Assembly: GCA_002712005.1 (NCBI GenBank)
Contig: PASP01000006.1
Location: forward strand, 242,822 to 306,821
Length of the DNA: 64,000 nt
From: Halobacteriovoraceae bacterium
GTDB taxonomy: Bacteria; Bdellovibrionota; Bacteriovoracia; Bacteriovoracales; Bacteriovoracaceae
Reading direction: 5' to 3'
A program made the translations under genes and the position numbers. Of the stretch, positions 7,096 through 19,051 are shown in pieces; position 1 is the stretch's first letter, and each line of letters opens with the position of its first letter. The notes under the pieces were generated by a model. It worked only from the letters and a program-made list of their open reading frames with translations. It ran no database searches and was not told the DNA's origin.

Positions 7096-7449
7096 ACTTT
7101 TCCTATAATTTTTAATAGGTTAATTATACCTAAAACTGCTCCTTGCAAAAGGAGATTCACCTCTTTTATAGTTTCTAAATTCACTTCTCACAAAATGAAA
7201 TCTGTCGAATCTTTAAACGGCCCCCGAAAGCTTTACCTAAACCAACTATTTCAGTCTCCTTTTTGGCATCATGATTGCTTATACAGCCCCCAATATTGAA
7301 AACCCTATCCACAGGAAGGCAAGAGGTTCAATTTCAGTGTCAGACTGACCTTTTGGGGCCTTTTTATCTTCAAAGAAGGAGCCACTGTGGCCCCTCACTG
7401 AAAATAATTCAATAGAAGAGATTTTATCTATTATATGTTGGGAGAAAAA
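7096..7449. other. Divergent intergenic region with a structured part
   Basis: 354 bases without a credible gene, between the minus-strand methyltransferase and the plus-strand coiled-coil giant. It contains TATAAT-like sequence near the methyltransferase start, a TAGGT/ACCTA inverted repeat near 7120, and the nested inverted repeats at 7333-7402 listed separately. No RNA gene is recognised. Confidence 0.5.
7333..7402 (+). repeat. Nested inverted repeats in the 5' leader of the giant coiled-coil gene
   Basis: TTCAGTG (7333-7339) pairs with CACTGAA (7396-7402); inside it GGGGCC (7355-7360) pairs with GGCCCC (7389-7394), and a small GTCAG-A-CTGAC hairpin sits on the left arm. Together these could form a branched leader RNA ending about 45 bases before the start codon. 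Confidence 0.45.
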
Positions 7450-10400
7450 ATGCAAGTTCTAAAAAATCTAAGCAACCTAAAGAAAATAACCCCTTTGATG
7501 ATGGCAACCTTTCTCTTATCTCCGGGCCTATTAATGGAAAGCGCCTATGCTCAGATTCATAACGAACAGATTCAAAATATTCAAAAGAAACAAAGTGGAG
7601 AGATTGCTCTAAAGAACTTTGACTCTTATTTCAAACCCTTTATTGGAACTCCCTCTTTTCAACTTACAGATGATCCTGAAGTTCGTCGTTTAACAGGGCA
7701 ATTTGAGAAGGCCCATGATGCCTATAAAAATTCGACCGAAGAACTTGATCTTAAGAATAAAGAGCTGACAGATGCTAGGCTAGCTAAAGATAAATTGGCC
7801 CAAGAAATTTCGGAAGTCGAAAAAAAGATCATAACGGCCCTCAGTGAAAAGACAAAACTTGAACAGCAACTCCCAAACCTAAGAAAGCAGTTACAAAATT
7901 TAAGTGCTACAGAGCAAGTCGCTCAGGCTGCTCACGACACAACTCAAGCACAACTCCAAACGGCCAAAGAAACAAGAATTGCAGCAAAACAAGAACTAGA
8001 AAAAGTACAGCAATCATGCGAGGCCAATCCCTCTGATAAATGTGCTAATCAAATTAAAAAAGCTACCCAAAGATTTAATCAAGCAAAGAGAGATCAAAAT
8101 AATGCCCAAAGGGTCTTTAACATAGCAAAGAAAGATTTAGACACTAAAAAGAAAAATAAAGAAAATAAGGCCAAACAAATTGTTCACACTCAAGAAACAA
8201 TTAATCGCCATAAAGCAGAAAACACGAAAAGGGCAGAAATTCTCAATCAAAAACAAACACAAATGAAGCGTGCGCAAGTACGAATCCAAGTCGCCAACAG
8301 AAATCTCATACCAGCGAGAAACCAGTTTCAACAAAAATTGAAAGAACGCAATCAAATTGTAAGTGGCCTTAATCAACTCAAGGAAAGAATTGCAATTAGA
8401 GCTGTTAGACTCAATAAAATAGGATCCGAAGTAGGACAAGATGCTGGATCCATTGATGGCGATTACTATGCTGAGTACATAGGTGTTCCAAGAGGTCAGA
8501 GAGATGGTGATCGCGATGGAAGAGAAGCTGGTACCAGTGCTGGTCAAAATAATTCATATCAACAAGGACTTTCTCAAGGAGAAGTTGAAGGAAGATCTCA
8601 AGCCCAAATAGATGGTTTTGATCATGGTAAAGAAGAAGGTACGAAAGCTGGTTTAATGGCCATTGCCACAAAAGAAGGTGAACGAGATGGACTTGCAAGA
8701 GCTCAAGCCTCAGATGCAGATCAGGTTGGGATGGCCCAAGGTCAAGCAGATGGTCTTCAAAGGGCCACTCAAACTGGTAAAAAGTTAGGATCTGAAAAAG
8801 GTCAAAATCAGGCCATCGAAATTAATGAAAAGAAAGAACTTAAGAAGATTAATATTTCAGGCCAATTTGCAGGAGCATTTGCTGCTCTAACTCCAAACTA
8901 TCCAGGTTTTAACTGTATTCGTCGTGGCAGTACACGATTTGAAAGAGATCAATACGAATGGAGAGGATATAACGACTGGAGAGCAGATCGTAATCTATGT
9001 CCAAACTTCAAGCCGCGTGAGCACTCCGAAATGGTAAGGGCCAATAGGGCCATTTTCAAAAAGGCTTTTATGGATGGATATCTCGTGCGCTACAGAGGTT
9101 CGCGTCGTGAGCAATTTGTAAGATCTATTGATCACTACTATTCTCCAAGCTATTCCCACGCGAGAAATGCATCTTATGCTGATTTTTCGACAAGAACATA
9201 TCCGGACTTTCTAGAAAGAGGAAGAGCAAAGGGTTATACAACCGCTTATAACACCACCTACCCTAGTGTTAAGGAACGCTACTATAACGACTTCTATAAC
9301 TCATCTTTCCAAAATCCAGATAGAAGTCACTCCATCTATAGCTCGACTTACAGAAGAGTGGAAAGCAATAACTTTGAAACACGCTACGAACAAATTCGTG
9401 CCAGCGTATATGCAAGTACTGAGCAAAATACCTTTGATCAGAATATTAAAGAACAAACAGAAATCTTTAGAAAGAAGAGATTTGATGAAGTTAATCAAAT
9501 CTATAAAGATGCGCCTATTTTAAAATTCGACAAAACAGAGGTAAAAGATGCTGGGATAAGTGGTGTCGCCCAAAATGATGGAATCTTTCAGCCCGCAGAG
9601 AAAATCAATCATGATCTGACGCTGATTAATTACGGTCAAGCTGCTGCCCAGGCCGTAACTTTAAAAATAGGATCGCAAGTATTCAAAGTTCCTTCAATTG
9701 CTCCACAATCTAAAGTGACCGTTAAAGGGGTTGCTCAAACTGATGTAACAACTGGATTAGGTCAAACCCATACTTTAGTTGCCAAGGTTATTTCACCTCT
9801 AAGTCATGAGGCGAGTATACAAGGAAGACACTTCTATTCTCCTTCTTCAGGTACCCTGAACTATGGAGATAAGAAGACACTTAAAATTCAATACCCGATT
9901 AGTCTTACTGGAATGCGTACTCAGTCTGATCTACTCATTAATAATAAGAATAATCTTCAAGTGAGTTTATCAAATATATCGAAGAGAAAATATACAGGAA
10001 AACTCGAAATTGACCTCAGTGTAAATTCTCAAACCGATATCATCACTCGTCCATTTTCTGCCCTCAATGGCCTAACTGGTACAGTGACTTTAAATGACGC
10101 TGAGCTTTTAGTGGCCAGTGAAAGAGATGTGTATAGTGAATTAAAATTTGGCGCTAAAATTCGAAAAAATGGAGTTGTCATTGGTGTTCTTCCAGGACAT
10201 TTTGAAACAATGGCCAAAGCACCTTTTTCGAATAAAGCGGGAAAACCTGTTCTTCTCGTTGATTCAGACAAGTCAGCAACGGATCTATTAAAAGTCGTGA
10301 ACTCCTATGGTGGCCTAAGTCAGATCTCCGTATTAGATATTTCTCTTAACCGACTCAATCAGAGTGTATTGGCTCAAGGGCTAGATAAGAAATCGATACT

Positions 10401-11187
10401 TGTTATCGATGATAATCGTGGATCTACTGCAGAGACATTTGGAAAAGTTCTTTCAAAACTTGAAGACTCTTCTATTGTCTTTGTCGATTACTCAGCAAGA
10501 GGTCTGAATCAGGCCTTGGCCCGTACTAAAGAGATGAAGTATGCCGCCAAACTCCCTACACTTATAAACGGCTTTAGTTCTCCAGTTCAGCTTCATTTCA
10601 CAAACCCATTTATCTCAGGTAGTGCTGATATGAATGTGGTTGCCCAGGCCAACATGGAAAACTACAAAGAAATGGTAAAGGCCCTTTCTCAGTATAATTA
10701 TACTAAGAATGAAATCATCCCTAGCGCTGGAAGTGTTCTCACGAAGGCAAACTATAAGAAGACAAATAGTAAAGTAAGAACATTAATCTCTATGGCCGCG
10801 GCAGAAGTAGTAAATGCCTCTCTTGCTTACAAGGCCTCTGGGAATAATGAGAAAATGGTAGACTTTATTAAGTCTGGCTCTCCAATCTTTCAACGTGTTC
10901 TCAATCAATCAGGCAAGAAAGTTAAAAACTCGACCCTGTCAAAGAATTTAGCCGCCATCTCTATGTGGAAAGTACTCGATAAGGCCGTTGATTCTTTTGG
11001 TCCAATGGAGGATAATGTGGCCTATGACATCGAAAGTGAATTTGAAGATGCCATGAAAGATATGATGCAAGGAGAAGGACTTAGAATCTTCTCAAAAGGA
11101 ACTTGGAATTACCTTAAAGATTATGATCGTGGCCTTTACAACACAGTGGATGACCAACCTTACGTCCACTCTCCATTCCAAATTTAA
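7450..11187 (+). CDS. Giant exported coiled-coil protein with GxxxG repeats
   Basis: The ATG at 7450 is preferred over 7435 because TGGGAG lies 5-6 bases before it. The 1245-aa product has a signal peptide ending in ESAYAQ. Residues about 75-325 form a long Gln/Lys/Glu-rich coiled coil. Residues about 333-457 hold Gly at every fourth position (for example GQRDGDRDGREAGTSAG), similar in pattern to the GxxxG tract of FliH or Yae1-type repeats. A Tyr/Arg/Ser-rich stretch follows (about 500-690), then a region that looks like an Ig/CARDB beta-sandwich (GIFQPAEKINHDLTLINYGQ), and a C-terminal part with alternating helix and strand. Probably periplasmic or surface-associated. No family is recognised as a whole. 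The divergent subtilase gene overlaps its 3' end. Confidence 0.75.
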   Translation: MQVLKNLSNLKKITPLMMATFLLSPGLLMESAYAQIHNEQIQNIQKKQSGEIALKNFDSYFKPFIGTPSFQLTDDPEVRRLTGQFEKAHDAYKNSTEELDLKNKELTDARLAKDKLAQEISEVEKKIITALSEKTKLEQQLPNLRKQLQNLSATEQVAQAAHDTTQAQLQTAKETRIAAKQELEKVQQSCEANPSDKCANQIKKATQRFNQAKRDQNNAQRVFNIAKKDLDTKKKNKENKAKQIVHTQETINRHKAENTKRAEILNQKQTQMKRAQVRIQVANRNLIPARNQFQQKLKERNQIVSGLNQLKERIAIRAVRLNKIGSEVGQDAGSIDGDYYAEYIGVPRGQRDGDRDGREAGTSAGQNNSYQQGLSQGEVEGRSQAQIDGFDHGKEEGTKAGLMAIATKEGERDGLARAQASDADQVGMAQGQADGLQRATQTGKKLGSEKGQNQAIEINEKKELKKINISGQFAGAFAALTPNYPGFNCIRRGSTRFERDQYEWRGYNDWRADRNLCPNFKPREHSEMVRANRAIFKKAFMDGYLVRYRGSRREQFVRSIDHYYSPSYSHARNASYADFSTRTYPDFLERGRAKGYTTAYNTTYPSVKERYYNDFYNSSFQNPDRSHSIYSSTYRRVESNNFETRYEQIRASVYASTEQNTFDQNIKEQTEIFRKKRFDEVNQIYKDAPILKFDKTEVKDAGISGVAQNDGIFQPAEKINHDLTLINYGQAAAQAVTLKIGSQVFKVPSIAPQSKVTVKGVAQTDVTTGLGQTHTLVAKVISPLSHEASIQGRHFYSPSSGTLNYGDKKTLKIQYPISLTGMRTQSDLLINNKNNLQVSLSNISKRKYTGKLEIDLSVNSQTDIITRPFSALNGLTGTVTLNDAELLVASERDVYSELKFGAKIRKNGVVIGVLPGHFETMAKAPFSNKAGKPVLLVDSDKSATDLLKVVNSYGGLSQISVLDISLNRLNQSVLAQGLDKKSILVIDDNRGSTAETFGKVLSKLEDSSIVFVDYSARGLNQALARTKEMKYAAKLPTLINGFSSPVQLHFTNPFISGSADMNVVAQANMENYKEMVKALSQYNYTKNEIIPSAGSVLTKANYKKTNSKVRTLISMAAAEVVNASLAYKASGNNEKMVDFIKSGSPIFQRVLNQSGKKVKNSTLSKNLAAISMWKVLDKAVDSFGPMEDNVAYDIESEFEDAMKDMMQGEGLRIFSKGTWNYLKDYDRGLYNTVDDQPYVHSPFQI

Positions 11188-12202
11188 TCAACCTTCATTT
11201 AGGTATCGAAGCGTAACGTTTCGATACCTCTTTTTCTTCTTTAGCTGCCTGCTTTTAAACGACATCCTGGTGAGTGGCCCTCTTTTTGCCCAAGAAACAG
11301 ATAGCGAACAAGAGATAAGGAAAATAAGTCCTTCTGTAACAACTTCTTCTTTGTCTAATTCTACCCAAGACGAAATTATCAGAATTGCCATTTTTGATAC
11401 AGGTTTTTGTCCGAGTCTGATTGAGCAGAATCCCCACTTTCAAATTGAGCCGGTTAAAGACTTTACCCAAAGTAATACCTATAAATGCATTCCAGGAAAA
11501 TTGAAGGGTTTTCGCTTTCATGGTCACCGGATCCTTGAGTATCTCGAAAAAGAGCTTAAAGTAAATTCTGAAGAAGAAAATCCAAACAAATCGCAACTTG
11601 CCAATAAGGAAGCTTCTCAAAGAACTCCCTTACATCCAAAAATAAGAATTTATCCCTATATCCTCTTTAACCATAAAGGTGATCAATCCCTAGAGTATTG
11701 GAAAATTGCCCTTAAGCAACTTCGAGCAGACAAGATCAATATGGCCGTGATGGCCGTTGGCCTCCCAGCGAAGAAGGAAAATATAAACTCTCTGGTTAAG
11801 AGTGCTCAAAATTTTAAAGGATTCTTTCTTATGGCCTCAGGTCAAAAAGACATCCGCTTAAATTTAAAATATGGTCTCTTCCCTCAGTCAAAGAAAGAAG
11901 AACTTCTCGGGCTTATGCTAGGGCAATACTACCCTGCTCTGGCCTCATCAGAAGTAGCCCTTCTTCCTCCCGCTCAACTTCATTCAAGAAAGTCTGACTT
12001 CTTTTTCAAAGTAAACTCTTTCAATCAACTAAAGAATACAAGCTTGGCCGTCACCCAAGCCCTCGGCTTAATCATCAAACAGTGCTCCTATGGGGAAATT
12101 GTAAACTTCTCCAAAGTATCAGCATGTCTAGAAAAGATCAGTTCTCAAACTTCGGCTAAACTCCCCTCTGGAAAAATCATCCCAATAAAGGCCCTTCCCT
12201 AG
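11123..12202 (+). CDS. Divergent subtilisin-like (S8) exported protease
   Basis: Counting from the ATG at 11123 (359 aa), the S8 triad is visible in order: Asp92 in RIAIFDTGF, His133 in FRFHGHRILEY, and Ser307 in KNTSLAVTQALGLI, which matches the GTSMAxPHVAGxxAL helix. The oxyanion Asn segment (usually AAGN) reads LMASGQ, with Gln241. A hydrophobic export segment lies at about residues 34-56, ending LFAQ. The true start is unclear: ATGs at 11123 and 11150 both lie inside the upstream gene and neither has a clear ribosome site. No start exists between the terminator-like hairpin at 11202 and the export segment, so the hairpin is inside this gene. It is likely translated after, or coupled to, the giant gene. 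Substrate unknown. Confidence 0.7.
   Translation: MIVAFTTQWMTNLTSTLHSKFNQPSFRYRSVTFRYLFFFFSCLLLNDILVSGPLFAQETDSEQEIRKISPSVTTSSLSNSTQDEIIRIAIFDTGFCPSLIEQNPHFQIEPVKDFTQSNTYKCIPGKLKGFRFHGHRILEYLEKELKVNSEEENPNKSQLANKEASQRTPLHPKIRIYPYILFNHKGDQSLEYWKIALKQLRADKINMAVMAVGLPAKKENINSLVKSAQNFKGFFLMASGQKDIRLNLKYGLFPQSKKEELLGLMLGQYYPALASSEVALLPPAQLHSRKSDFFFKVNSFNQLKNTSLAVTQALGLIIKQCSYGEIVNFSKVSACLEKISSQTSAKLPSGKIIPIKALP
11202..11236 (+). terminator. Strong hairpin terminator after the giant gene, inside the next gene's 5' coding part
   Basis: A 12-base stem (11202-11213 with 11217-11228, one G-T pair) with a 3-base loop TAA is followed by a T-rich tract, 15 bases after the stop at 11187. It looks like an intrinsic terminator, yet the subtilase-like frame reads through it. 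Confidence 0.7.
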
Positions 12203-12359
12203 TAAAAACTCATAAAATGGGCGGCCCTCGTCACAGTCTTAGCTTAAAAAAACTGAAATATAACTCATTGAAACTACTTAACTTTCCGAAAAGAAAGGTA
12301 AGACAATACACTCGAGAGTCCAACCTATAACCAAGTATGGTTATAATTAAAGTAAGCTT

Positions 12360-14357
12360 ATGAAAAAAGATAATATTAAAAACCCCATTCACCATGCCTG
12401 TAATAAAATCCTTATTACGATTATGACCTGCCAACTAGCCTTTGCTCCACAGCTTTATGCTAGTGATCTCACTGGTGATGAAAAACTTCAGGCGCAAAAA
12501 GAGGCCTGTACTGGGGCTTCTGTAGAATGGAATGAAGAACTCAATAGTTGTACAACCACAGCTGAAGCTGAAGGAACAAAAGAAAAAGCTGATGAATGTG
12601 CTAATTCTAATGATCCTGATATGTGCTATTTAACCAATGCAGAAGACCTAACTGGTGTAGATGCTGGTGAGAATATAGAAGATGCTAAGCTTGAAAATGT
12701 TGGTAAAATTGTAGCGGCAGCTTATGCGGCCTTTGGACTCATTGCCGGTGCGGCAGGAGGTGATGGAACTAAACAAAGATTAAAAACCAAGAAACCTCCA
12801 AAATGTATGTCGGGACGCCTCTTTCAATACACGTCAGTGGGATGGATAGCTGGTGATTTCTTCTTGAAAAGATTTGCCAAAAAGAATTTTGAAAAGCTGG
12901 CCGAGGAATATGAAAAAGAAGCTGAAAATGATGAATTAAAAGGAACTGAAGAAGGCTCTTACCAAGCCCAAATTCGCGCCTTTGAGTATTTAAGAAAAGA
13001 ACAAGAAGATATCCAAAAACAAGCCGACAAGAGAAAACTTCTCCAGATGGCGGTTATTGCTGGTTATACAGCAGCAACAGGCTTTGGCGTTGCCGAAATG
13101 ATGGATATATCTGGAACTACAAAATGTAAGGGTGAATCCAAAAAAGATAAACCTGAGGAAGTAAAAGCCGCTGACTCAGATGTTGATACAGATAAAGTAG
13201 AAGAGATACCAAGTAGTGGATCTAGTGGTACCAAAAGCGCTGAAGTTTTAAATCAAGAGGCAGCTGATCAAGCAAAAACTAAGTTTGGTGCAATCAAGAA
13301 AATGGTTGGAACTTCTCTTGGTAATACAATTGCCGGTGGAATCATGCTGGGACTTAATGTTTACTTGATCTGGCATGCCCATAATGAAAGAAAGAAAGCC
13401 GAAAAGAATATTGAAACTATTGATGAAGTCATAGCTTCTTATTCTGAATATATGTCTGGTTACTGTCCAGATGGTAGAGACGATCTCTCTAATCCCGAGT
13501 GTTATTGCTATAATTCAGATGGTACTCAAAATTCTAATCGTACCAATTCTAATATTTGCCAAAACCTCTTTAGTTCAAAAAATATTAACTATGCTGCCCA
13601 GAAAGAAAAAGAAGAGCAAGTGGGTCCTCGCCAAGGTTGTGTCACAGTTGAAGGACAATTTGATGAAGACTGTCGTTGTCAAAATATGAAAAACGGTGCG
13701 GGACAAAATGCATGTGCAAAAGTCACCTCTCTTTCAACCAGTGCAAATGGATTCACAAGTGCTCTCGATATCCCTGGTGCCATAAACTCGGCCAACTCTC
13801 TAACCAATGGAGCAAGTACGGCCTTAGCGAATCTTGACTCGGCAAGCTTAGCTTCAAGCGCTGCCAAGAATAAGAAGTTCACGGATAAACTTCTCAATTC
13901 AGCAAAGAATAATAAAATCAATGTACCATCGGCTATTAGTTTAGAAAAAATGACAGGACAAAAGGTAAGAGAACTTGCTTCTACAATGCCAGGTCCATCA
14001 GCAGGAGGCTTCAGTGGTGTCCGCTCAAACTCAGCCGCCAGGCCTGCAGCTGTTCAAAAGGCCTTAGAGGAAGCTAAGAAATCTAAGGTTTCTGCTGCTG
14101 TAGGAGATATGTTATCCTCAGTAGGTGCAGGAAAAGGAAAAGTTGGTGCTTCTAAAGGAAAGAGTAATACCTTTGTTTGGAATGATACCGCTTCAGGAGC
14201 AGGAAGTAAGGTTCAAACTTTTATGGATAAGAAATACAATTATAAGAATTCAGATATAGTGAATCGTAAAGATGTGAGTTTATGGAATGTTATCTCCAAG
14301 CGCTATCAAACAAGTGGTATCAAACGCTTATTTGATGAGGGCGAGGATGATGAATAA
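12360..14357 (+). CDS. Large exported Cys-containing protein with Gly/Ala-rich helices (paralogue-like to 15716-17731)
   Basis: 665 aa. The N-terminus has an export segment (KILITIMTCQLAFAPQLYAS). Three further hydrophobic Gly/Ala-rich stretches are seen: around residues 117-135 (AAAYAAFGLIAGAAGG), 224-245 and 319-340 (NTIAGGIMLGLNVYLIWHAH), each next to Lys/Glu-rich helices. A Cys-rich part (SNPECYCYN, DCRCQNMKNG) suggests disulfides. The C-terminus ends with SLWNVISKRYQTSG, closely matching the end of the 671-aa protein (SLFERISTRYKAVS). Probably membrane-anchored with periplasmic parts. The stop overlaps the start of the VanY-like gene, so they are translationally coupled. Function unknown. 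Confidence 0.7.
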   Translation: MKKDNIKNPIHHACNKILITIMTCQLAFAPQLYASDLTGDEKLQAQKEACTGASVEWNEELNSCTTTAEAEGTKEKADECANSNDPDMCYLTNAEDLTGVDAGENIEDAKLENVGKIVAAAYAAFGLIAGAAGGDGTKQRLKTKKPPKCMSGRLFQYTSVGWIAGDFFLKRFAKKNFEKLAEEYEKEAENDELKGTEEGSYQAQIRAFEYLRKEQEDIQKQADKRKLLQMAVIAGYTAATGFGVAEMMDISGTTKCKGESKKDKPEEVKAADSDVDTDKVEEIPSSGSSGTKSAEVLNQEAADQAKTKFGAIKKMVGTSLGNTIAGGIMLGLNVYLIWHAHNERKKAEKNIETIDEVIASYSEYMSGYCPDGRDDLSNPECYCYNSDGTQNSNRTNSNICQNLFSSKNINYAAQKEKEEQVGPRQGCVTVEGQFDEDCRCQNMKNGAGQNACAKVTSLSTSANGFTSALDIPGAINSANSLTNGASTALANLDSASLASSAAKNKKFTDKLLNSAKNNKINVPSAISLEKMTGQKVRELASTMPGPSAGGFSGVRSNSAARPAAVQKALEEAKKSKVSAAVGDMLSSVGAGKGKVGASKGKSNTFVWNDTASGAGSKVQTFMDKKYNYKNSDIVNRKDVSLWNVISKRYQTSGIKRLFDEGEDDE

Positions 14358-15066
14358 GAGCATTTTAAAGGCCTTTGGTGTAAGTGATAACCAGCATCTC
14401 ATTAATCTTCCTCAACATGAAAAACACTTGATCCAAAAAGATCTTCTTAAAGACTGGAACGATCTCGTAACTCTTGCAAGAGAGCATGGGATTAAAATAG
14501 CCCCTATTAGTTCTTATCGCTCATTTGAACATCAATTAAAGATATGGAACCTCAAGGCATCAGGAAAGAGAACTCTACTTGATGACAAGGAAGAAGAAGT
14601 TCCATTTAATCACTTTAATTTGAATAAAAAAGAAGATGCTCTAAAGCTCATTCATACCATTTTAAGATGGAGCGCCCTACCAGGACTAAGCCGACACCAC
14701 TGGGGTAGTGAATTTAATCTTATTGATGAAACGATTTTTGAAACTCAGCCAAATTACAAAACAGAGCTTATTCCTTCTGAATATGAAGAAGGCGGCCCTT
14801 TTTATAAATTGGGAGAATTCTTACAGAACCATTTAAAAGATACCGCCTTTTTTCGTCCCTACGAACTTGATCTGGGAGGAGTGGCCCGTGAGCCTTGGCA
14901 TATCAGTCATCGCGACTACTCTCACCAAATGCTCTCTCAAATTACTGAAACTGATTATCTCGCTTTTCTCGATCTCTATGGACAAGAACTTATCTTAAGA
15001 GAGACGGTCGTTGATCATCTCGATTCCATTTGCGAAAGATATGTCTTTAATATTAATCGCGACTAG
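14350..15066 (+). CDS. VanY/M15-type D,D-carboxypeptidase-like protein with Asp-to-Asn zinc-ligand change
   Basis: The ATG at 14350 (or 14347) overlaps the end of the upstream gene and follows GAGG. 238 aa, without a signal peptide. M15B features are present: ISSYRSFEHQLKIW (the SGYRS...Q motif), then PGLSRHHWGSEFN, then EPWHISH near the C-terminus. In the SxHxxGxAxD zinc motif the last Asp is Asn here (codon 14716-14718), while the His before it and the EPWH Glu/His are kept. VanY-type enzymes trim the terminal D-Ala of the stem peptide. The changed ligand may weaken or alter activity. Lack of an export signal would place it in the cytoplasm unless it is exported another way. Confidence 0.8.
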   Translation: MNKSILKAFGVSDNQHLINLPQHEKHLIQKDLLKDWNDLVTLAREHGIKIAPISSYRSFEHQLKIWNLKASGKRTLLDDKEEEVPFNHFNLNKKEDALKLIHTILRWSALPGLSRHHWGSEFNLIDETIFETQPNYKTELIPSEYEEGGPFYKLGEFLQNHLKDTAFFRPYELDLGGVAREPWHISHRDYSHQMLSQITETDYLAFLDLYGQELILRETVVDHLDSICERYVFNINRD

Positions 15067-15487
15067 TTTGCTCAAAGCCAATAGCATGAAGCCATTCAGC
15101 CGTTGGTTTAATTAACTTTCTCTTTTCTAAATCCATTAAACCGACACTCATAGTAACTGATGAAGCCAACTCTCCATTTTCTTTGAACATCTTTTGCTCA
15201 AGATGCATGATGAGAGGATGCTCTTGAGGCAAAGACTTGCTTACAATCTTAATATTTTCTCTATTTTTTAATTCTCTTTTAAATTTTAAGTGAAGATCAA
15301 GTATGACCGGCCCCATCTTCTTCTTTTGAATATCTTTAAGACCAAAACCACGTTCCGAAATAAAGTCCCATCTGGCCTCTTCGTAGAGTTCGAGATAGGT
15401 CGCATTATTAACATGCCCAAATGTATCTAAATGGGCCTCTATGATCTTTAAATGGTATTCAAATTCTTGCACGACAGTTTCCTTCAT
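15053..15487 (-). CDS. Hotdog-fold acyl-CoA thioesterase (YbgC/FadM-like)
   Basis: 144 aa. The motif HLDTFGHVNNATYLELYEEA (around residues 17-36) is the 4-hydroxybenzoyl-CoA thioesterase signature, with the Asp and the GHVNNxxYL pattern kept. The rest fits a single hotdog domain of normal length. It hydrolyses acyl-CoA thioesters in the cytoplasm; the chain specificity cannot be told. The 3' end overlaps the VanY-like gene by 14 bases in convergent orientation, and the gene has no operon partner. Confidence 0.9.
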   Translation of the reverse strand: MKETVVQEFEYHLKIIEAHLDTFGHVNNATYLELYEEARWDFISERGFGLKDIQKKKMGPVILDLHLKFKRELKNRENIKIVSKSLPQEHPLIMHLEQKMFKENGELASSVTMSVGLMDLEKRKLIKPTAEWLHAIGFEQTSRD

Positions 15488-15715
15488 TTTCCAATTATAA
15501 GCGCTTATATCAGGCCCTTGTCTCCGAGATGCCCAAAATTTATGTCATTTTAATCCTCTCGAATACCGGGGTCTAGTCCCTATATTTAGACATAATTTTA
15601 GTGAGTTAGGTAATTATACGTCGATATCAAAGCTTAAAACTCAAGTATATTACCTAGATAGACGATAATAGTAAGTGAGAAAGTATAAAACATACTATTA
15701 GTAAGAGAGAAAAGC

Positions 15716-17731
15716 ATGAAAACTCATTCATCTAGAAATTCAACCTCGTTAAAAACTCAGGGATTTCTCTATCGAACAACCCTTTCCCTGCTTATATTCT
15801 CCCTTATTAGCCTTGATTCCACTTATGCCTTTTCTCGAGGAGATAGTGATCGTCCAGATCGAGAAAACTTCAATGCCCAAAACCGTTCTAATGGAATTCG
15901 TCATTGTGAAGAATGGTATGTGGAATATGGAATCGACGGTGGTTCCTCTACCCTGCCCTGGTATGATTTGAAGTCTACGCAAAACTCATATATCGATCTT
16001 ATTTTTGGTGGTCAAACACCAGACTTAGATAAAGTCGTAAAGATGTCAGAGTCAATGGGTAGTGGAGATAAGAAAGAGCAATTTAAAAAATTCCTCTCCG
16101 AATTAGTTTATTGCGAAGCTTATCGTGCAGCTACAGAGACAGAAAATTATCATGAAAAACATCGCGACATCTTTGCCAACTCATCAGGTTCAGGCGCAAA
16201 TGGCCAAGATACTGTGAATACCCAGATGATGCAATGTATGCAACAGACCGATCAAGCTCAGGCCCAACAATGTATTCAACAGGCCCAACAAAGTGGTGGG
16301 ATTTCTTGTCAACATGAAGGTTGGGAGACTCATGATTACTTAGCTTGTAAGAAGTTGGCCACTTTCACAAAAGGATTCACTGTAGGAAAAGCGGCTATGG
16401 AACTCCAACAAACCGTGCGAGTTGGAAATGCTCAAGTTAATGCCCAAGAAGATCTTCTTCAAAAACAAAGAACGGAAGAAGGTATTGGAATGTCTGATAC
16501 TCTTGCCGTTCAAAGAGATTCTTTAGAACAACAGGGAAATATGGCCTACGAGATGGCCGCCTATAATGCAGCAAAGGCCGGAATTCTTCTCTCCATGATA
16601 AGTAGCTTCCCCAACAAAGAAGATATGTTCAGCCGATGTACTGAAAACTTCAGTAATGATCAGCAGTCCTCATTTGTCACGAACCTATCCAATAGCATAG
16701 CAGCTGGAGGTTCAGAAGAAGCAAGAGCATTCTTCTCCGAAGTAGCAGGAGGAGAAGGACAGCAACTTAATATCGCCTCTCTCTTTGAAGAGGGCTCTCA
16801 TATCAATTCACTCTATTCAAATAATCCAGACCCTAAGAATACTCAGCATATTTGTGAAACTATCATTCAAGAAAATTCAAACTTCTTTCTCAATCAAGAG
16901 ATGCTCGACAAAGTAAAAGAAGTGGCCATGGGTGCAGGTCTAGAGGCCATCGCCAATGGTGCTCAAGGTGCTCTTTTAAAGAAACAAGCTGGAATTGTTG
17001 ATGATGCTATTGGTGATATTGAAGAATTTGAAAAACCTGAATTTGAGCAAGCTGGCTTTGAGCCAAGCCTAACAAGCGAATGTGTGGTTGACCCCGAAGC
17101 GGAAGGCTGTATCACTTTCGATGGACTAACCAATAGCGGATTTGGCTCACAAAGTTTTTGTACAAGTGCCACTGGTTCAGCAAATCTTGGAAGTGGATCT
17201 CTAGGAGGCGACGATGATAGTGGTGTTTCCTCAGCGTCAGCTACAGATAGAGACCTTCTCCCAAAAAGTTTTGGTTCCGTAACCGTAGGTACTCCTAATG
17301 ATACTTCATTTTCAGATGGAATCGTTAGTCCCGGAAGCGTTAAGCCTGGTAAAGGTGGTGGTGGCGCCGGAGGCGGCAGCGGCGGTGCCGGTGGTGCAAG
17401 TCTTCCAGGTGGAGGCGGCGGTGGCCAAGGTGCTGGAGCAACAGCTGCTGCAGGCTCCAAAGGAAGCTCGGCCATTAAAGTAGGATCCGTAGGATCTGGT
17501 CTAGGTAGAGTATCTGGCGGAAGAGGATCTATTGGAAAGAAAGTTTCTAAGAGTGATAACCCTTTTGCAAAGCTATTAGGAAAATCAAAGTCAAGTGGAG
17601 CAACTCTCAACTTTAGAGGACCTGCCCAAATTGGAAAGAAGAAAGGTTCTCTCTTTGAAAGAATCTCCACTCGTTATAAAGCTGTCTCGGATGCCGATAA
17701 GCTTCTCAAGTATGAGGCGACAAAGAAATAG
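15716..17731 (+). CDS. Large exported Gly-rich protein sharing a C-terminal motif with 12360-14357
   Basis: 671 aa with a signal peptide (LYRTTLSLLIFSLISLDSTY, cleavage near AFS). Conserved Cys occur in RHCEEWYVEYG, LVYCEAYRAA, MMQCMQQ and LACKKLATF, suggesting disulfides. Gln-rich repeats lie near residues 166-190. Around residues 543-590 there is a Gly-rich linker encoded by a locally GC-rich stretch (17350-17440). The C-terminus KGSLFERISTRYKAVS resembles that of the 665-aa protein. A ribosome site (AGAGAGAAAAGC) precedes the ATG. No family is recognised; an exported structural or surface protein is the best inference. Confidence 0.7.
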   Translation: MKTHSSRNSTSLKTQGFLYRTTLSLLIFSLISLDSTYAFSRGDSDRPDRENFNAQNRSNGIRHCEEWYVEYGIDGGSSTLPWYDLKSTQNSYIDLIFGGQTPDLDKVVKMSESMGSGDKKEQFKKFLSELVYCEAYRAATETENYHEKHRDIFANSSGSGANGQDTVNTQMMQCMQQTDQAQAQQCIQQAQQSGGISCQHEGWETHDYLACKKLATFTKGFTVGKAAMELQQTVRVGNAQVNAQEDLLQKQRTEEGIGMSDTLAVQRDSLEQQGNMAYEMAAYNAAKAGILLSMISSFPNKEDMFSRCTENFSNDQQSSFVTNLSNSIAAGGSEEARAFFSEVAGGEGQQLNIASLFEEGSHINSLYSNNPDPKNTQHICETIIQENSNFFLNQEMLDKVKEVAMGAGLEAIANGAQGALLKKQAGIVDDAIGDIEEFEKPEFEQAGFEPSLTSECVVDPEAEGCITFDGLTNSGFGSQSFCTSATGSANLGSGSLGGDDDSGVSSASATDRDLLPKSFGSVTVGTPNDTSFSDGIVSPGSVKPGKGGGGAGGGSGGAGGASLPGGGGGGQGAGATAAAGSKGSSAIKVGSVGSGLGRVSGGRGSIGKKVSKSDNPFAKLLGKSKSSGATLNFRGPAQIGKKKGSLFERISTRYKAVSDADKLLKYEATKK

Positions 17732-17743
17732 AAAAGAAATAAT

Positions 17744-18685
17744 CTAGTCGACTACAGTATGCCCTTTAAGGTTGATAAGCTCATCTGATAAAGGGCCATA
17801 CTTTTCCAATAAAGGTAGCATCTTTTCAGGTTCCATTGGACATTTCAGAACTTGCCCTCCTCTTAGAGAGACATCCGAAATTCTATTCTCAACCATCTCA
17901 AGCATTTCCTGAGTTCTAAAGCTTGAACAGTTTTGACCTTCGTCAAAAGCGTCGTCAATATAGTTTGCCCAGTCAATCTTCTTTACTTGTTGCCATTGAT
18001 CATCAACACAAGTCACATAGGGACCGACATTATATTCGGCTCCTAGTACATCATCTTCATGTTGAAACATATGATTCCAAAATCTCATACCGTTGAAATT
18101 TGCAATCAGGTCTCCATGAGACTTTACTCCGGTCATAATAGAACCCATCATCCCCGTTTCTGCACTATAACCAATCTTTAGTGCATCACCGAGCGGATTC
18201 TTATCGAGATGATAGGTTTTAAAATATCTAAAGCCTGAGCCCATGAAATGCTCAAACTTATCCGTCCCAATAAAGACATTATTTACTTTTATTAAGGCCG
18301 CTGTAGGATCTGAAACAACTCTCCCCCAAAATCCTTGAATGGGAGACTGAATCCAAGAAAAGTCTTGATAGATACTATCTTCGATAATAATCCAATGAGC
18401 ATCGATACCTTGAGTATCTACAATTTCTTTTACCATTTCACCACGGTATTGATTATTAAAGTAACCTCTTAAGTGGCGATAGAATTTCTTCTCATTACAA
18501 CCTTTCTTCTTCTCATTGAGTTCATCAATGGCACGAGCGAGGTAGTTATTAGTTTTTTCATTAATAAAGTCTAAGGAGTCTTCTAAAGGGATAAGACGAT
18601 GAGTAAAGCTATCAACTTCTGCTCCCATAATAGAGGTGCTTAGAGAAAATCCAAGTGCTATAAGACTTAACCAATTTAATTTCAT
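17744..18685 (-). CDS. Exported protein of unknown function with His/Glu/Gly-rich conserved-looking core
   Basis: The ATG at 18685 is chosen over 18715 because AAGGATCG precedes it and a signal peptide follows (KLNWLSLIALGFSLSTSIMG). 313 aa. The middle contains VFIGTDKFEHFMGSGFRYF, then AETGMMGSIMTGVKSHGDL and IANFNGMRFWNHMF. This spacing of His, Glu and Gly-rich turns looks like an active or binding site, but I cannot name the family. Cys residues at the ends of the mature part may pair. It is transcribed toward the 671-aa gene and shares a short 12-base gap with it. Confidence 0.65.
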   Translation of the reverse strand: MKLNWLSLIALGFSLSTSIMGAEVDSFTHRLIPLEDSLDFINEKTNNYLARAIDELNEKKKGCNEKKFYRHLRGYFNNQYRGEMVKEIVDTQGIDAHWIIIEDSIYQDFSWIQSPIQGFWGRVVSDPTAALIKVNNVFIGTDKFEHFMGSGFRYFKTYHLDKNPLGDALKIGYSAETGMMGSIMTGVKSHGDLIANFNGMRFWNHMFQHEDDVLGAEYNVGPYVTCVDDQWQQVKKIDWANYIDDAFDEGQNCSSFRTQEMLEMVENRISDVSLRGGQVLKCPMEPEKMLPLLEKYGPLSDELINLKGHTVVD

Positions 18686-19051
18686 AATACGATCCTTAAA
18701 TAGAATTATTCTCAATATACCGAGAAGCTAAATCCAACCCAATATAAGAAGTAATCTTTACTCACCGTTTATGATTTAGACAGGGCCACAATGGAGAGCT
18801 ATTTAAGGCCATTAAGGCCCTAAAATATTTCATGGGGCCAAAGAAAGTATCGGTCATCAACCGTAACTAATTGATATTGCGTAATCTTCTTTGGCATTGC
18901 CTTTGCTCTTAATACCAGAGAAATAGGAATCAAGGATGCTTCCTAAATAAATTGAGTGTTTTGACGGATATAAAACAACTTAGTTAACATTAAATAAGAC
19001 ATTTGAAGTACAGACATTTCAAACTCTAATCCAAACTGGAAGGATTAATTT
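18686..19051. other. Divergent intergenic region, no gene seen
   Basis: 366 bases between the minus-strand exported protein and the plus-strand TPR gene. It has a TAAGGCCATTAAGGCC direct repeat near 18800 and a weak GGCCC/GGGCC hairpin after it, but nothing I can call as an RNA gene. Promoters for both flanking genes must lie here. Confidence 0.5.

Follow-up and report, generated by a model that had tools for sequence, protein, structure and literature searches.

A giant rod gene and a protease gene meeting at a terminator-like hairpin, beside genes for C-terminally tagged exported proteins, in a Halobacteriovoraceae genome

Gene content of the locus

We analyzed a 64,000-nucleotide window from a Halobacteriovoraceae bacterium (contig PASP01000006.1, positions 242,822 to 306,821), a member of Bacteriovoracia, the group of the predator Halobacteriovorax. 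It includes genes W8 to W13, five of which (all but W12) an earlier note made from the sequence alone had proposed as a candidate exported system. The subjects here are the junction of W8 and W9, which encode a giant rod and a protease, and the short C-terminal sequence (hereafter, the tag) that ends the W10 and W13 proteins. The six open reading frames (ORFs) are as follows.

7435-11187, + strand: W8, ORF for a giant exported rod of 1250 amino acids (aa)
11123-12202, + strand: W9, ORF for an exported S8-like serine protease
12360-14357, + strand: W10, type I tagged exported protein
14287-15066, + strand: W11, VanY-like (M15) protein
15053-15487, - strand: W12, hotdog thioesterase
15716-17731, + strand: W13, type II tagged exported protein

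Gene starts are those of the ORF calls, and signal peptides were assigned by eye and hydropathy. The ORFs, with five genes on the plus strand and the hotdog gene on the minus strand, are arranged as the earlier note had them. For the neighborhood comparison, genes in 30 regions from relatives were matched to the genes of the window. Pfam gave no family for W8, W9, or W10, and nothing above the cut-off for W13. The next gene, W14 (17744-18715, - strand), encodes an exported protein of 323 aa, also without a Pfam family, and adjoins W13 in many relatives.

The W8-W9 pair and its hairpin

Strong profile matches to W9 were found in 45 genomes, 43 of which also had W8 and 41 of which had the two genes adjacent; in the two genomes with both genes but no adjacency, they were on different contigs. 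There was no strong W9 match outside the class. The adjacency persists in rearranged loci, and in many genera the pair sits elsewhere, without W10 to W13. As judged from this distribution, W8 and W9 form one unit, an obligate pair.

The two genes meet at a hairpin with the appearance of an intrinsic terminator.

11201-11229, + strand: terminator-like hairpin with a 13 bp stem, after the W8 stop and within the signal-peptide codons of W9 (terminator scan)
11230-11239, + strand: T-rich tract, forming Leu/Phe codons of the hydrophobic (h-) region of the W9 signal peptide (sequence and translation)

The RNA fold of the hairpin has an energy of -18.2 kcal/mol (z -4.84), and its GC-rich stem and T-tract match intrinsic-terminator design beyond chance. 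Under the criteria used (a stem of ≥8 pairs, 4 GC pairs, and ≥5 T in 8), a hairpin followed W8 in 33 of 43 distinct loci, where dinucleotide shuffling predicts 0.1, and was present in 31 of the 36 loci with W8 and W9 in tandem. It fell within the downstream ORF at 21 of 24 W8-W9 junctions, compared with 3 of 149 among the other closely spaced tandem gene pairs of these regions; the three cases were W9 behind pepD and, in two related genomes, one exported hydrolase-like gene behind asnS. Likewise, the first 150 nucleotides contained such a hairpin in 20 of 30 W9 genes and in 3 of 706 other genes.

Translation showed that the W9 frame crosses the hairpin in 31 tandem loci. At such junctions the hairpin, together with its T-tract, encodes in frame the hydrophobic core of the W9 signal peptide, for example [GSVFLLAL]FFIPSLFAA in L016. 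No usable start codon was found 3' of the hairpin in 30 of these 31 loci, from which we infer that the W9 frame is translated through it. Stem sequences vary from lineage to lineage, so the pairing is maintained. No such hairpin was detected where W9 is separate from W8 and begins clear of any other gene (L040, L049, L058), which argues that the hairpin is part of the end of the upstream gene and is overlapped by W9. In L054, where W9 was relocated behind pepD, the hairpin at the pepD end falls in the W9 signal peptide. The W8 terminator, a role that is predicted, and the W9 export signal thus appear to be the same DNA. We found no precedent for terminators within signal-peptide codons in the literature searched (subscription papers were outside the search). 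Separately, an exported hydrolase-like gene lies directly behind asnS in two loci (L047:6269-7024, - strand; L048:15532-16341, + strand), and the asnS terminator-like hairpin is within its signal-peptide codons.

The overlap at the W8/W9 junction is genuine and houses the hairpin, whereas that of W10 and W11 is mainly a matter of ORF-start choice, and several orthologues have none.

Two other explanations of the hairpin were considered. T-rich, Phe-coding terminator DNA could have been recruited as a signal-peptide core with no regulatory gain, leaving the overlap as an evolutionary by-product. The recurrence of the layout, with W9 behind pepD (L054) and the hydrolase-like gene behind asnS (L047, L048), fits this account, but decay would then be expected, yet 31 of 36 loci retain the stem despite wide sequence divergence between lineages, and we consider it rather unlikely. 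Alternatively, the hairpin could act at translation without any termination, hiding the W9 start region until the last ribosome on W8 opens it. Candidate start codons just before or within the hairpin in many loci, and the overlap of the two ORFs, are consistent with this. However, a GC-rich stem with a T-rich tract is terminator design that start hiding does not need, and hairpin-like stems also occur 3' of W8 where no W9 is downstream; we give this explanation a low probability.

The W9 protein has a signal peptide followed by an S8-like domain, with no recognizable pro-domain. Its family profile matches subtilisin DY over the full domain, at an E-value (0.0024) that is weak, and Pfam finds nothing. 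The catalytic residues Asp92, His133, and Ser307 are within family motifs and are kept in 24, 24, and 23 of the 24 aligned proteins, respectively. The oxyanion Asn (position 241) is present in 2 of the 24 and lost in 22, with Gln in the window protein, in agreement with the altered oxyanion site that had been proposed. The simplest reading of these residues would be that W9 is an active protease whose oxyanion site is relaxed.

Relatives of W8, some of them weak matches, were detected in 50 of 129 genomes of the class, and those in named genome records belong to Bacteriovoracaceae, Bacteriovoracales, Bacteriovorax, and Halobacteriovorax. The GxxxG rod of the earlier note was borne out as a coiled coil followed by an array with Gly at every fourth residue, and further domains were found downstream.

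7678-8424, + strand: W8 coiled coil, about aa 82-330; matches to coiled-coil models and chains only
8422-8874, + strand: W8 GX3 array, aa 330-480, with Gly at each fourth residue over aa 330-456; Gly columns invariant in 24 relatives
9514-10221, + strand: two tandem Ig-like beta-sandwich domains of W8, aa 694-929; AlphaFold2, with high confidence there
10249-11166, + strand: alpha/beta domain of W8, then a helical domain with a conserved HxPF at its end; AlphaFold2 secondary structure and alignment

The Gly array is followed by a Tyr/Phe-rich region leaning to the same four-residue spacing. In a fold search with aa 470-1250, the structural alignments listed were all on the two Ig-like domains, which aligned with the C-terminal barrels of factor XIII (VIA-align Z 11.0, rmsd 3.5, 189 residues); the alpha/beta and helical parts had no structural match among those listed, a result that carries no weight. 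The first Ig-like domain, and no other part of W8, is weakly matched (28%, 2e-4) by a product of an Elusimicrobia contig (L084:6493-6774).

The C-terminal tag and its carriers

The tag has the consensus [IL][FW]xxISxRY and comprises ~20 residues at the extreme C-terminus, usually after a long low-complexity linker. The common C-terminal motif noticed earlier in W10 and W13 is real, and it is conserved in the orthologues of both.

14274-14333, + strand: W10 C-terminal tag, VSLWNVISKRYQTSGIKRLF
17648-17704, + strand: W13 C-terminal tag, SLFERISTRYKAVSDADKL

A simple tag pattern occurred 26 times in the 489 proteins of the W8 regions, and because every occurrence was C-terminal (≤45 residues from the C-terminus), it is not due to chance. 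The number of tags in the genome itself rests on profile searches, starting with a profile built from the W10 and W13 ends, which picked out five more proteins at low E-values; E-values of such short profiles are uncertain at the weak end. Seven matches were obtained at E < 1e-3 and one more at E 0.04 with a broader profile, all at the extreme C-terminus. Five of these ends were in the alignment behind the broader profile, which makes its scores for those five non-independent; they were absent from the first profile. Among sampled Bacteriovoracia, 23 of 24 had the tag at E < 1e-4, usually with 5-8 copies per genome where W8 is present and fewer in others. The tag is also present in a sister class of Bdellovibrionota, where the sampled matches were C-terminal. 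In a control with 120 Elusimicrobiota the profile matched in 11 at E up to 0.1, with a best value of 0.005, which is the chance rate. Tagged proteins of the sister Bdellovibrionota are found in tandem, in groups of 2-4 (L141, L142, L144, L147, L190, L191, L193), and some of the sister-class tags are variants followed by TPLNRALxGLP. Similar transposase-like genes lie beside tagged proteins in the genome itself (L098:1563-2444) and in the sister class (L144:8040-8951).

Eight tag carriers are encoded in the genome, W10, W13, and six others of 549-2016 aa, and by inspection all start with a probable signal peptide. The type I protein W10 consists of a helical/membrane part, two Cys-x-Cys clusters, a low-complexity tail, and the tag, and profile searches found its homologues in 102 of 125 genomes of the class. 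The type II protein W13 has a Cys-bearing core, a Gly-rich tail, and the tag. When the W10 and W13 families were compared with hhalign, only the C-terminal tail was aligned. One carrier has a YkuD_2 L,D-transpeptidase domain (E 6.8e-33) on a W13-like core. As far as profile comparison can tell, the tag sits on at least two unrelated protein families. The motif might instead mark the shared end of a single ancient family of proteins, given the Cys-x-Cys and hydrophobic parts shared among type I members; this is improbable, as type II members, including the YkuD_2 carrier, share only the tail with type I, and the bodies of sister-class carriers match neither type by BLAST. The longest carrier (2016 aa; L186:4919-10969, contig C2, ~90.9-97.0 kb) is an exported protein in which a long run of Cys-rich repeats of ~43 residues each (126 Cys) precedes a W10-like module and the tag; it has no Pfam family above the cut-off.

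The carriers had no match to a C-terminal sorting domain in Pfam or NCBIfam. Those of this genome have no 19-residue hydrophobic segment near the C-terminus, so no transmembrane helix follows the tag. An amphipathic helix was also considered for the tag and rejected, and since the hydrophobic moments were no better than those of shuffles, membrane insertion is not favored. Nothing was found on a C-terminal tag in Bdellovibrio in the literature searched, within the limits given above. The tag is most likely a docking or sorting peptide, which would dock its carriers to one shared envelope partner or export gate.

Two units and their relation to known systems

The gene order W8-W9-W10-W11-W12-W13-W14-W15-W16 is kept, with ordinary genes, in genus g1 and some other genera of the class, and W11 belongs to this local synteny, which also keeps the thioesterase, a TPR gene, and a NIF3-like gene. 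W11 is VanY-like with an altered zinc ligand, as the earlier note had recognized (Pfam VanY, E 1.1e-22, 80.7 bits against a cut-off of 25). Position 144, usually the zinc-ligand Asp, is Asn (AAT, 14716-14718) in W11 and Asp in 12 of 12 orthologues, so the His/Asp/His ligands required of an M15 VanY are incomplete; this change, private to the genome, is possibly a recent inactivation. No hydrophobic N-terminal segment was detected in W11. It is a cytosolic neighbor and a member of neither unit described below.

A single five-gene envelope system, in which rod, protease, two tagged proteins, and peptidoglycan enzyme are jointly active, is very unlikely: the order W8-W9-W10-W11-W12-W13 is kept in genus g1 and several other genera, but the housekeeping neighbors have the same synteny, W10 is near universal (102 of 125 genomes) and W8 is not (50 of 129), the W8-W9 pair sits elsewhere in many genera, and tagged proteins occur in genomes without W8 or W9. 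The earlier note had named a gene-neighborhood analysis as its check and scattered orthologues as its refutation; once run, this comparison refuted the five-gene claim on account of the separate distributions, while the link of W8 with W9, co-occurring and adjacent even in rearranged loci, survived. Because the distributions differ (43 of 45 for the pair, 102 of 125 for W10), W8-W9 is regarded as one unit and W10/W13 as part of something wider. We thus consider it probable that two separable units lie side by side, the rod with its dedicated, terminator-coupled protease (W8-W9) and the tagged proteins (W10/W13).

For the first unit we propose that most transcripts would end at the W8 terminator within the W9 signal-peptide codons. 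W9 would then come solely from read-through transcripts, or from those on which a ribosome, having started on W9 just upstream, covers the hairpin, and the protease would be scarce relative to the rod, which it may mature, trim, or clear. More tentatively, and with somewhat less than even confidence, the junction may be a conserved dual-code element (a terminator that is the core of the next gene's signal peptide, setting both export and protease dosage relative to the giant partner), and the phylum-wide tag beside it may define an undescribed envelope docking/export pathway of Bdellovibrionota.

Several points weigh against the two-unit reading given above. No hairpin was detected in 5 of the 36 tandem loci under the criteria used. 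Possibly the hairpin does no more than terminate W8, and W9 is transcribed from a promoter within W8; promoter-like sites were below the shuffle mean, and such scans leave a promoter there possible, although its transcript would still cross the hairpin. Cutting of W8 by W9 is suggested by their adjacency alone. For the second unit, no receptor for the tag was found, and the tag could be an end conserved among remote homologues; the type I (W10-like) bodies are mutually related. AlphaFold2 modeled W10 poorly (mean pLDDT 45.8), and no fold is claimed from that model.

If true, this double use of a terminator would offer an economical means of holding two secreted partners at a set ratio, and the layout suggests how signal peptides can arise from terminators. 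The tag makes an uncharacterized route of export or docking accessible to experiment in a phylum of bacterial predators and their relatives, in which lineage-specific proteins mostly lack annotation.

W9 resembles the S8 subtilisin family in its Asp, His, and Ser and the surrounding motifs, and differs in the usual replacement of the oxyanion Asn, the lack of a recognizable pro-domain, its restriction to one lineage, and its pairing with W8. In Escherichia coli the frd terminator overlaps the ampC attenuator, and the terminator of the upstream gene limits the next gene, as proposed for W8-W9; there the terminator is in the ampC leader, whereas here it is within coding sequence. It is established that ribosomes open a terminator in the pil1 leader of Streptococcus gallolyticus (PMC3894217), where, similarly, the terminator hairpin can be prevented by a ribosome translating a short frame; at W8-W9 the frame in question is that of the protease gene itself, whose signal peptide the terminator encodes. 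The tag is like the C-terminal domain of the type IX secretion system (T9SS; PMC10202324) in being a C-terminal signal on Sec-exported proteins, and unlike it in having only ~20 residues and matching no sorting-domain model in Pfam or NCBIfam. Compared with PEP-CTERM (PMC1569441) and MYXO-CTERM (PMC11980579), the tag has no transmembrane helix with a basic tail and no invariant Cys, its carriers are far fewer, and no sorting protease is known for it; what it shares with both is a short C-terminal homology on differing Sec-exported proteins, several per genome and lineage-wide.

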